From a virus, in the IMG/VR virus record IMGVR_UViG_3300043420_001048, positions 1-26,063 of that record: DNA of 26,063 nucleotides. One strand, given 5' to 3'. The notes under the pieces were generated by a model. It saw nothing but the letters and a program-made list of their open reading frames with translations. It had not been told where the DNA came from and did no database searches. Below, in pieces: positions 2,351 through 12,983 of this stretch. Position 1 is the stretch's first letter; every line of letters begins with the position of its first letter. Both the position numbers and the translations under genes were made by a program.

Positions 2351-4273
2351 ATGAGTTTACCTACACTTTATCAAGATTTCATTCACCTTTCTCGCTATTC
2401 AAGATGGCTTGAGAAGGAAAACAGAAGGGAGTCTTGGGAAGAGACTGTGAAGCGTTATTTCGATTTCTTTGAGAACCATCTCAAGGTAAATCAAAAGTTT
2501 ATATTGTCTGGTGAATTGAGAAACGAACTGGAACAAGCAGTTCTCAATCTTGAGATTATGCCAAGTATGCGTGCTTTGATGACAGCAGGAGAAGCACTGG
2601 AAAGAGACAATACTGCTGGTTACAACTGCTCATATGTGGCTGTAAACCGCGTAAGAGCATTCGATGAAATCCTCTACATTCTGATGTGCGGCACAGGTGT
2701 AGGTTTTAGCGTGGAGCGTCAATATGTTGAAAAACTTCCTACAATCGCTGAACACTTTACCGACTCGGATACTATCATCGTTGTCCAAGACAGTAAGGCT
2801 GGTTGGGCTAAGGCTTATAAAGAACTTGTCTCCCTGCTTATTGGAGGTCAAATTCCAAGATGGGACATCTCAAAGATTCGTCCTGCTGGCGCGCGCCTCA
2901 AGACATTCGGTGGAAGAGCGTCAGGGCCTAAACCTCTCGAAGATCTTTTCCGATTCACCAGTGATACTTTCCGAAGAGCCGCCGGCAGGAAACTCACATC
3001 TATTGAGTGCCACGATATTGTCTGTAAGATTGCAGAAATTGTCGTGGTCGGAGGAGTGCGTAGATCTGCTCTTATTAGCCTGTCGAATCTCACCGATGAA
3101 AGAATGCGTGATGCTAAGACTGGCGCGTGGTGGACTGACAATCCGCAGCGAGCACTTGCAAACAACAGCGTAGCATACAAGGAGAAACCCGAAATTGGTG
3201 TATTTATTGAGGAATGGTTGTCTCTCTATAAGAGCAAAAGTGGAGAACGCGGTATATTCAACCGCGACGCTTGCCGCAGAACTGTATCTAAACTTGGAGA
3301 TCGTCGTGACTCGTCTTATGAGTTTGGCACAAATCCTTGCTCTGAGATTATTCTACGCGACCGTGAATTTTGCAACCTTACTGAAGTTATAGTTCGTCCA
3401 GAGGATACTGTGGAGTCTCTGAGAAGAAAGGTTCGTCTTGCTTCCATTCTAGGAACATGGCAAGCATCTCTTACTCACTTCCCATATCTCTCCAGTGATT
3501 GGAGAAAGAATTGCGAAGAGGAAGCACTTCTTGGTGTTTCTCTCACGGGCATTCTTGATAATAAAGATATGAGTTGCGATAATCACGAAATTCTTGGTGC
3601 TTTACTCACACAACTTAAGACGGAAGCAATCGACACGAACAAGGAATGGTCGAAGAGATTGCACATCAGTCCTGCCGCAGCAATCACTTGTGTCAAACCA
3701 TCAGGAACGGTTTCTCAATTGACCGACGCGGCATCTGGTATTCACGCCCGTCACAGTGAATACTACATTCGTACTGTTCGTGCAGATCGTAAGGATCCAC
3801 TCTGCCAGATGATGATTGATCTTGGTTTTCCTGCGGAACCTTGCGTGATGAAACCAGATCATACTATGGTCTTCTCGTTTCCGATGAAAGCAGAGGGTTC
3901 GGTCACACGCAACGATATGACCGCAATCGAACACCTTGAATTGTGGTTGACATATCAGCGTTATTGGTGCGAGCATAAGCCATCAATCACGGTGACTGTA
4001 AAGGAACACGAATGGATGGAGGTAGGTGCTTGGGTATACAAGCACTTTGACGAGATCAGTGGTATTTCGTTCTTGCCACACTCGGATCATTCGTATCAGC
4101 AAGCACCCTATCAAGAATGCAGCAAGGAACAATATGAAGAAGCATTAGCAAAAATGCCAAAGGATGTTGATTGGTCGCTGCTGAAGAACTTCGAAAAGTC
4201 CGATACGACCAAGAGTTCACAGACAATGGCATGTAGTGCTGATGGGTGTGAAGTCGTAGACCTGACTAACTAA
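2351..4273 (+). CDS. nrdJ: Class II (B12-dependent) ribonucleotide reductase
   Basis: 640 residues. It reduces ribonucleotides to deoxyribonucleotides with adenosylcobalamin as radical source, supplying dNTPs without oxygen and without a second subunit. The sequence matches the monomeric Lactobacillus-type triphosphate reductase. C93 (AGYNCSYV) and C341 (REFCNL) fit the active-site redox pair; C330 in NPCSEI fits the thiyl-radical cysteine, with N328 and E332 beside it. The 11-residue spacing C330-C341 equals C408-C419 of the Lactobacillus enzyme. The tail pair C628/C633 (CSADGC) keeps the 5-residue spacing of the regenerating C-terminal cysteines. AITCVKPSGTVSQL is the conserved phosphate-binding loop region. 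About 100 residues shorter than the 739-residue bacterial enzyme, but no key residue is missing. AAAGGAG precedes the ATG. NDP versus NTP preference is not decided here. Confidence 0.95.
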   Translation: MSLPTLYQDFIHLSRYSRWLEKENRRESWEETVKRYFDFFENHLKVNQKFILSGELRNELEQAVLNLEIMPSMRALMTAGEALERDNTAGYNCSYVAVNRVRAFDEILYILMCGTGVGFSVERQYVEKLPTIAEHFTDSDTIIVVQDSKAGWAKAYKELVSLLIGGQIPRWDISKIRPAGARLKTFGGRASGPKPLEDLFRFTSDTFRRAAGRKLTSIECHDIVCKIAEIVVVGGVRRSALISLSNLTDERMRDAKTGAWWTDNPQRALANNSVAYKEKPEIGVFIEEWLSLYKSKSGERGIFNRDACRRTVSKLGDRRDSSYEFGTNPCSEIILRDREFCNLTEVIVRPEDTVESLRRKVRLASILGTWQASLTHFPYLSSDWRKNCEEEALLGVSLTGILDNKDMSCDNHEILGALLTQLKTEAIDTNKEWSKRLHISPAAAITCVKPSGTVSQLTDAASGIHARHSEYYIRTVRADRKDPLCQMMIDLGFPAEPCVMKPDHTMVFSFPMKAEGSVTRNDMTAIEHLELWLTYQRYWCEHKPSITVTVKEHEWMEVGAWVYKHFDEISGISFLPHSDHSYQQAPYQECSKEQYEEALAKMPKDVDWSLLKNFEKSDTTKSSQTMACSADGCEVVDLTN

Positions 4274-5839: not shown

Positions 5840-6021
5840 AAACAACAGTAAGCAATATAGAAATCACAGAAGAAAATGCACTCGCTGTTCTTATCGACAT
5901 TCTCAGCAATCATCCAATTTGGCAAAAGGATCCAAATGTAAAGATATGCTGCAAGGTCGTAGGCGCCAAAATCATAAATCTTGAAACAAAAATAGACGCT
6001 GCAATTAATATTCTTACATAA
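5827..6021 (+). CDS. Small uncharacterised acidic protein
   Basis: 64 residues, start ATG 5827 with GAAGGAAAC just upstream inside the nuclease gene. The sequence is mainly helical (ENALAVLIDILSNHP, GAKIINLETKIDAAINIL) with a Cys pair (ICCK) in the middle. No domain is recognised. The 13-bp overlap with the SNase gene suggests coupled translation and perhaps a related role. Its stop codon TAA overlaps the late-type box CATAAATA that precedes the structured RNA. Confidence 0.65.
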   Translation: MDAIETTVSNIEITEENALAVLIDILSNHPIWQKDPNVKICCKVVGAKIINLETKIDAAINILT

Positions 6022-6024
6022 ATA
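6017..6024 (+). promoter_or_regulatory. Late-type promoter box CATAAATA before the RNA element
   Basis: CATAAATA matches 7 of 8 bases of the T4 late consensus. Using T4 spacing (last A at -6), transcription would begin near C6030, inside the 5' arm of the outer stem of the RNA at 6026-6138. Confidence 0.5.
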
Positions 6025-6025
6025 C

Positions 6026-6143
6026 AAAGCACACGCGGACATTATCGCTCAAACATACCAAAATGAAAACCCTTTAACTTCACATAAAGTGGTTTTAGCA
6101 AAACAATCATTTTGCGTTTAAGCGTCCGCGTGTGCTTTTTTTT
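6026..6143 (+). ncRNA. Multibranched structured RNA ending in a terminator
   Basis: Base pairing is explicit. Outer stem: 15 perfect pairs, AAAGCACACGCGGAC (6026-6040) with 6124-6138. Second stem: GCT and AAAC (6047-6054) with GTTT and AGC (6116-6123), around a C/A mismatch. Inside are two hairpins: AAAACC plus CTTTA (6066-6076) with TAAAG plus GGTTTT (6085-6096, one bulged T), and GCAAAA (6098-6103) with TTTTGC (6110-6115). Eight T residues (6136-6143) follow. No ORF fits. The element starts right after a late-type promoter box and ends right before the GGAGG of the RuvC-like gene. It could be a free small RNA of about 110 nt or an elaborate attenuator for that gene. No known family is recognised. 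Confidence 0.65.
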
Positions 6144-6152
6144 GGAGGTACT

Positions 6153-6719
6153 ATGCTCATAGCAGGAATAGATTACTCTCTGAACGGCCCATCAATATGT
6201 GTGTTCAATGGTGAGATATTCAACTATGACGATTGTACTTTTTATTTCTTGACGGACATAAAGAAATACACACAAAAACCATATGGAAAGATCTTTGGTG
6301 AACGGTTTATAGATTGGAACCAAGAGATGGAACGCTACGAGTCAATCGCAGATTGGGCACTAGAGACTGTGATTGGTTGCGATGCGGTTGCTCTGGAAGG
6401 TTATGCTTACTCAGCACAAGGGAGAGTGTTCCATATCGCAGAGAATACGGGTGTTCTGAAATACAAGATGTATCAGATAGGACTACCTGTTACGGTGTTC
6501 ACCCCCTCAGAGATAAAGAAATATGCTACTGGTAAGGGAAATGCAGATAAGCAGATGATGTATGAATCGTTTGTAAAGGAAACAAAAGAAAGAATAAAGG
6601 ATATGATCTGCCCAGAGAAAAAGGATATAGGTAATCCCGTCTCGGACATAGTTGATTCTTATTATCTTTGTAAGTTTCTTTTTGACAAGATCAGAAAAGA
6701 ACAAGGGTTGACCAAATGA
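6153..6719 (+). CDS. RuvC-like Holliday junction resolvase (RNase H fold)
   Basis: 188 residues from ATG 6153, 4 nt after GGAGG; the frame is open from a GTG at 6132 but that lies in the terminator stem. RuvC-type acidic residues are visible: D7 in AGIDYSLNGPSI, E82 in VALEGYAY, and D165 and D168 in NPVSDIVDSYYL. TPSEIKKYATGKGNADK is the RuvC-like loop with conserved GKGxADK. The enzyme should cut branched DNA, resolving recombination or replication intermediates before packaging, the job of endonuclease VII in T4. Being preceded by an RNA element with terminator, its expression may depend on read-through. A strong terminator follows directly. Confidence 0.85.
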   Translation: MLIAGIDYSLNGPSICVFNGEIFNYDDCTFYFLTDIKKYTQKPYGKIFGERFIDWNQEMERYESIADWALETVIGCDAVALEGYAYSAQGRVFHIAENTGVLKYKMYQIGLPVTVFTPSEIKKYATGKGNADKQMMYESFVKETKERIKDMICPEKKDIGNPVSDIVDSYYLCKFLFDKIRKEQGLTK

Positions 6720-6746
6720 AAACACCCCCTTTCGGGGGTGTTTTTT
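6719..6746. terminator. Bidirectional intrinsic terminator
   Basis: AAAACACCCCC (6719-6729), loop TTTC, GGGGGTGTTTT (6734-6744), then T to 6746. It closes the plus-strand RuvC-like gene and, read the other way, the minus-strand lysis cassette, whose last stop codon TAA lies at 6745-6747. Confidence 0.9.
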
Positions 6747-12248: not shown

Positions 12249-12496
12249 TATCTGAGTCCGTAGACAGTACCAGAAATCGAACTTATTGTTCTTGGACTAA
12301 AAGGAAACACTGCGCTTGCAGGAATAATTAGTCCGCTGAATGTTTTCCAATTACCAGCAGAATCTTTTTCCCAAGTTGTTCCTGCAATAGTTGCTGTTGC
12401 TGTTCCTGGATACAATCCTCTAAAATTCAGCACACTTGTTGAACTTGCTGTTATTTGCTCTATGTGCTGATATGCTGATGGATCACTCGTTTTCAT
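12248..12496 (-). CDS. Small beta-rich protein, possibly structural
   Basis: 82 residues, start ATG 12496 with AAGGAGA 7 nt upstream within the HNH gene. Sequence is Ser/Thr/Ala-rich and beta-prone (ITASSTSVLNFRGLYPGTATATIAGTTWEKD, NWKTFSGLIIPASAVFPF). Composition differs from its charged neighbours and looks like a small virion decoration or fibre domain. No family is recognised. It overlaps the HNH gene by 14 bp and the downstream gene by one base. Confidence 0.65.
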   Translation of the reverse strand: MKTSDPSAYQHIEQITASSTSVLNFRGLYPGTATATIAGTTWEKDSAGNWKTFSGLIIPASAVFPFSPRTISSISGTVYGLR

Positions 12497-12983
12497 TTTT
12501 GTCTCCTTGTAGTATTCTTTCTACTTCTGCAAAGGTTATGTCTTTCTTTAATCTCTCTGGTTTTCGAAGCAAATTCATTCTTGCTTCATCTGGTGTCCTG
12601 TCTCGTTTCTTCACATTGCATCTTCTGCAACAAGTCACTAAATTTTCCCAAGAGTTTTGTCCGTTTCTGCTTCTTGGAATAACATGATCTAAAGTCATTT
12701 TTTTTATGCTTCTTTCACCACAATACTGGCAAGTATAGTTGTCGCGGAAGAATATGTTTTTTCTTGTGAGAGAAACCTTTTTGAAAGGTATTCTTACATA
12801 ATCAATCAATGTGATCGAATTTGGTAAATGATAAATTCCTGTTGTCGTGGTTATTTCGTAAAGATGACTACAATTGTATGACTTGATTGCTTTTCCATTC
12901 ATAATCAATCTAACTGCTTTGTACCAATCTATCACATTAATAATTTCACAGGAAGCATTTAGCAATACAACATCGCGTTTCAT
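12483..12983 (-). CDS. HNH endonuclease
   Basis: 166 residues. Classical zinc-stabilised HNH: C85-Q-Y-C88, then LDHVIPRSRNGQNSWENLV with D99-H100 and N114, then C119-x2-C122 and NVKK. This hydrolyses DNA with a divalent metal. The N-terminal part (VVLLNASCEIINVIDWYKAVRLIMNGKA) is typical of the bacterial and phage HNH subgroup with an extra N-terminal domain, not of intron-encoded forms. It could be a free-standing homing nuclease, a nicking factor near packaging, or act on host DNA. Its ATG overlaps the upstream stop (ATGA), so it belongs to the operon rather than being a recent inserted homing gene. Confidence 0.9.
   Translation of the reverse strand: MKRDVVLLNASCEIINVIDWYKAVRLIMNGKAIKSYNCSHLYEITTTTGIYHLPNSITLIDYVRIPFKKVSLTRKNIFFRDNYTCQYCGERSIKKMTLDHVIPRSRNGQNSWENLVTCCRRCNVKKRDRTPDEARMNLLRKPERLKKDITFAEVERILQGDKNENE

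Follow-up and report, generated by a model that had tools for sequence, protein, structure and literature searches.

A 118-nucleotide (nt) structured element occupies positions 6026-6143 of the viral record IMGVR_UViG_3300043420_001048, whose 26,063 nt we refer to as the window; it is very likely a genuine, new RNA, carried by a few T4-like phages that are known from sequence alone. The element lies between a T4-late-type promoter box and a RuvC-like Holliday junction resolvase gene (ruvC), and our preferred reading, to which we assign a probability of about one half, is that it is a gene for a structured small RNA that is expressed late and terminates its own transcription, with ruvC being transcribed by read-through. 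A preliminary description of the window had proposed that the RNA has a late promoter and a terminator of its own and that its two ends pair, leaving open whether it acts as a free RNA, an attenuator or both. Comparison with relatives gives this proposal good support, in that the box, the outer stem and the U-tract are all kept and the stem exhibits compensatory changes, and of the three possibilities we favor the free RNA. The features on which our analysis draws are as follows.

6017..6024, plus strand: T4-late-type promoter box CATAAATA, which differs from TATAAATA at one position, 1 nt upstream of the element
6029..6039, plus strand: 5' strand of the outer stem P1, GCACACGCGGA, from fold and alignment; predicted start near 6030
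6046..6054, plus strand: 5' strand of the second stem, CGCUCAAAC, from the fold
6051..6102, plus strand: 52-nt core, the same in every known copy, from the alignment
6066..6096, plus strand: invariant inner hairpin P4, AAAACC-CUUUA / UAAAG-U-GGUUUU, with loop ACUUCACA
6098..6115, plus strand: alternative hairpin GCAAAA/UUUUGC, formed in the first (A) of two competing folds
6116..6124, plus strand: 3' strand of the second stem, GUUUAAGCG, which reads GUACAAGCG in contigs L003, L004 and L027
6125..6143, plus strand: 3' strand of the outer stem plus U-tract, an intrinsic-terminator-like end
6144..6719, plus strand: ribosome site and RuvC-like Holliday junction resolvase gene (phrog_159, E 4.6e-30)
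6718..6745, plus strand: terminator-like GC-rich hairpin directly after ruvC, which makes ruvC a single-gene unit

A search of viral contigs with the RuvC-like protein identified 48 loci. In six of these (L001, L002, L003, L004, L005 and L027), which encode RuvC proteins 84-95% identical to that of the window, the element is flanked by a late box and a ribosome site. L004 equals L005 in this region and L027 is one base off in the element region; we count approximately four independent versions of the element besides that of the window. When the five distinct versions were aligned over box, element and ruvC, the longest invariant run was the 52-nt core and the next longest measured 11 nt. Within ruvC itself, the codons conserved across the five versions contain 51 fourfold sites, of which just 6 are invariant, and pairwise identity at fourfold sites between distinct versions ranges from 31 to 59%. 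The persistence of an invariant core alongside such fast-changing sites argues for strong selection on the primary sequence of the core, beyond what pairing demands. The preliminary description had reasoned that an outer stem conserved around random inner sequence would speak against a functional RNA; instead, the inner 52 nt are strictly conserved. This same property bears on the possibility that the element is an elaborate but ordinary terminator for upstream genes with a functionless inner part. Such a role would account for the stem and U-tract, and in the window and L002, where the upstream gene extends to the late box, we saw no other terminator before the box. However, the inner 52 nt are the best-conserved stretch of the whole region, and L001, L004 and L027 already have, after the upstream gene and ahead of the box, a GC-rich hairpin with a T-tract, such that we consider this explanation improbable. 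With that hairpin, the element in those three contigs also has signals of its own at either end.

Searches beyond the ruvC loci did not enlarge this group. Scans with parts of the core, performed independently of ruvC, returned exactly the same six viral contigs, and relaxed DNA patterns, made for each half and for the hairpin, recovered from viral contigs either these six or noise. The element has no blastn matches among isolated phages, matches no Rfam 15 family at the gathering threshold (permissive thresholds gave sub-threshold matches only) and has no second copy in 20 relative records. A 20-nt match to the core in three genome contigs, from Marinifilum and a Bacteroidetes metagenome-assembled genome, had no accompanying model match and was taken as chance. 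Coding and promoter functions for the core were likewise considered. The window's open reading frame (ORF) scan contains no ORF of at least 50 amino acids (aa) across the element; a candidate short peptide within the core (ATG AAA ACC CTT TAA) was rejected since it lacks a ribosome site and accounts for only 15 of the 52 nt, as was a candidate core-internal promoter (TTCACA-17-AACAAT), the -10 part of which is not conserved in L004.

The window element folds with a minimum free energy of -42.8 kcal/mol compared to a mean of -18.0 (standard deviation 2.8) for shuffled sequences, which corresponds to a z-score of -8.8 with none of 200 shuffles equalling it; the elements of relatives score between -5.0 and -6.9 against their shuffles. 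This fold bears out the originally described architecture of a 15-base-pair closing stem (AAAGCACACGCGGAC/GUCCGCGUGUGCUUU), a second stem and two inner hairpins ahead of eight T at the 3' end. The three-way junction described at the same time fared less well. The segment CAUUUUGC is claimed by two competing folds, namely fold A, which is the three-way junction, and fold B, a rod (CAAAAUG/CAUUUUG) in which the 3' side of the hairpin at 6098..6115 pairs instead with CAAAAUG at 6059-6065. In the window the two folds lie within 0.1 kcal/mol of each other, whereas fold B is favored by 0.2 to 2.4 kcal/mol in L001, L002, L003, L004 and L027; the junction thus stands as one of two near-equal folds in the window while the relatives prefer the rod.

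P1 forms in both folds, and every one of its pairs is kept in every aligned sequence. Three of its 11 pairs exhibit two-sided compensatory changes (GC to UA and CG to UA, both in L003, and AU versus GC in a 3:3 split), while a control in which the P1 partner was slid by 1-3 columns yielded none. Given that the sequences are few and that two of the three changes occur in L003 alone, we regard this covariation evidence as modest. Compensatory changes had been anticipated in all four stems; they were found in the outer stem only, the inner hairpins being invariant and hence giving no covariation signal. The composition of P1 also informs whether the conserved feature is the DNA itself, for example a cruciform or protein-binding site used in recombination, packaging or replication. 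Strict primary-sequence conservation together with a strong inverted repeat beside a resolvase gene would suit such a site. Against it, the basal P1 pair is G-U in five of six aligned sequences, which is allowed in RNA and not in DNA, and oriented RNA features are kept jointly, with the late box on one side and the U-tract on the other. We consider a DNA-level site slightly less probable than the ordinary terminator.

The signals that flank the element point to a transcription unit of its own. The late box sits 1 nt 5' of the element in all seven contigs, as had been noted for the window, and reads TATAAATA in L001, L003, L004 and L027. In the window and four relative records, the 60 nt upstream of ORFs contain the motif ATAAATA at approximately 24 times the density seen elsewhere, and among all permutations of its own letters it is the one most enriched there; this enrichment supports the assignment of a late promoter at the box. 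In T4, roughly one helical turn separates the late box, numbered from -13, from the transcription start (PMC2988020). With this spacing, transcription is predicted to begin near 6030, at the base of P1, in agreement with the start first proposed. The relative G004 carries T4-type DNA polymerase, UvsX, DnaB-like helicase and primase families, which makes a T4-type late system plausible in these phages. On the 3' side, P1 is followed by 5-8 T across relatives, and the element then adjoins the ribosome site GGAGG (6144-6148) of ruvC, whose start is at 6153; this position directly before a RuvC-like gene, also part of the preliminary description, is confirmed by the phrog_159 match. The box, P1 and U-tract are common to all seven contigs while the upstream genes differ. 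Because the box, closing stem and U-tract are kept where the upstream gene is not, and because three relatives possess a separate terminator ahead of the box, the element looks like a self-contained late transcription unit. No other late box in the window and relatives was seen to be followed by a similar structured RNA.

Under our preferred reading, transcription would begin at the foot of P1, the inner domain would fold before P1, and P1 together with the U-tract would then release an RNA of approximately 110 nt, whose paired 5' and 3' ends should render it stable. The invariant 52-nt core would be its working part and, in light of its strict primary-sequence conservation, may bind a protein or a conserved partner RNA. 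Some polymerases would read through to produce ruvC mRNA, so that the RNA and the resolvase arise from one late promoter. Several observations weigh against this reading. The element is immediately upstream of ruvC in seven of seven contigs and the scans independent of ruvC found no copies away from it, both of which also fit a role in cis; the U-tract comprises only about 5 T in some relatives; and no conserved base-pairing target was found at gene starts of the window, G002 and G004. The best pairing candidate, located in the terminator before the 811/840-aa gene, is not conserved in G004 and was rejected.

The main rival is a role in cis as an attenuator, in which the element is the leader of ruvC, its terminator gates read-through, and a protein bound to the core (perhaps the resolvase) or a small molecule sets the ruvC level. 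There is no room for a promoter before the ribosome site and ruvC has its own terminator, which means that every ruvC transcript crosses the element, and the linkage to ruvC holds despite changing upstream genes, although this may reflect mere common descent. A precedent exists in T4, where structures at the translation start of genes e, soc, 49 and I-TevI are inhibitory; gene 49 encodes endonuclease VII, likewise a Holliday junction resolvase and the functional counterpart of RuvC (PMC3014915). The element resembles these leaders in placing RNA structure beside a late box and a ribosome site. However, the ribosome site of T4 e and I-TevI is sequestered by the structure, and the late RNA loses the structure's 5' part; for gene e, the late promoters are situated inside that 5' part, and late transcripts without it escape inhibition (PMC3014915). 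Here, by contrast, the box precedes the whole structure, which is closed upstream of the ribosome site and finishes with a U-tract, and with the predicted start at the stem foot a late RNA would keep both strands, unlike leaders of the e and I-TevI type. In folds of the read-through leaders of the window and relatives, the pairing of the ribosome site with early coding sequence varies from relative to relative, and no conserved sequestration was seen. Nor did comparison of both folds, together with the P1 change in L003, reveal a mutually exclusive antiterminator pairing with P1: no conserved alternative pairing breaks this stem, and because P1 varies without a matching change in the core, as L003 illustrates, no core-to-P1 antiterminator pairing is conserved. 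This speaks against a classical attenuator, although a bound protein could still regulate ruvC. On balance, an attenuator is the less probable account, and in its working the element appears to resemble most closely a small RNA gene with intrinsic termination. An unlikely combination of the two would have the invariant core bind a phage protein, possibly the resolvase via the branched fold, and thereby decide whether the terminator releases a stable small RNA or lets transcription continue into ruvC. If true, this would represent a new phage RNA setting Holliday junction resolvase output late in infection.

Relatives outside the group suggest how the arrangement arose. The element is absent from the 1.5-kilobase flanks of a wider set of 80 RuvC relatives (49-67% identical). 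Upstream of the ruvC match in L224-L303 there are 61 distinct sequences. Of these, 46 contain [ACT]TAAATA no more than 30 nt from the start of ruvC, against an expected 0.015 per stretch, and in 27 the distance from late box to ATG is exactly 12 nt. In the clade of the window, the box is approximately 136 nt from the ruvC start, with the RNA and ribosome site occupying the gap. The simplest reading of these data is that the RNA entered between promoter and ruvC in the lineage of the window, adding about 120 nt there; loss of the element elsewhere would be less simple. With T4 spacing, a box at 12 nt also predicts transcripts that start at the ATG, that is, leaderless late resolvase mRNAs.

PeSL cassettes of T4-type phages are mobile intergenic units that consist of a promoter and a stem-loop and use early promoters. 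Unlike these, our element has a late box, occurs once per record and is always found before ruvC. The leader of seg43(25) in Aeromonas phage 25 contains a very stable predicted hairpin just upstream of an unsequestered ribosome site (PMC2988022); the element likewise leaves the ribosome site free, a likeness of hairpin position only, as the gene differs. RNAC and RNAD of T4 are small phage RNAs whose role is unknown (PMC3014915), to which the element can be likened by description only, as a small phage RNA. According to a 2010 review, functional characterisation of a riboswitch or of a trans-acting small RNA was still lacking for T4 (PMC3014915). With conserved boundaries, a promoter, a terminator and a strict core, all at the promoter of a resolvase gene, the element is a candidate RNA in T4-like phages, and its core provides a defined sequence for environmental transcriptome searches and reporter tests.

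Other features of the window and its relatives were observed in passing. The hairpin at 6718-6745 has T-tracts on both strands where plus- and minus-strand genes meet and is likely a two-way terminator. A ribonucleotide reductase gene at 2351-4273, whose closest phage relatives (marine Roseobacter/SAR116 phages) are annotated as adenosylcobalamin-dependent, co-occurs with a resolvase akin to the ones found in T4-like phages. At 12483-12983 on the minus strand, an HNH endonuclease gene directly follows the 811-aa gene, which has no PHROGs match; in G002 and G004 a 166-aa ORF occupies the same place after their 840/845-aa genes. Lastly, two tRNA-like sequences, spotted by eye, follow an ATAAATA in G002 (L101, 17500-17660, minus strand).
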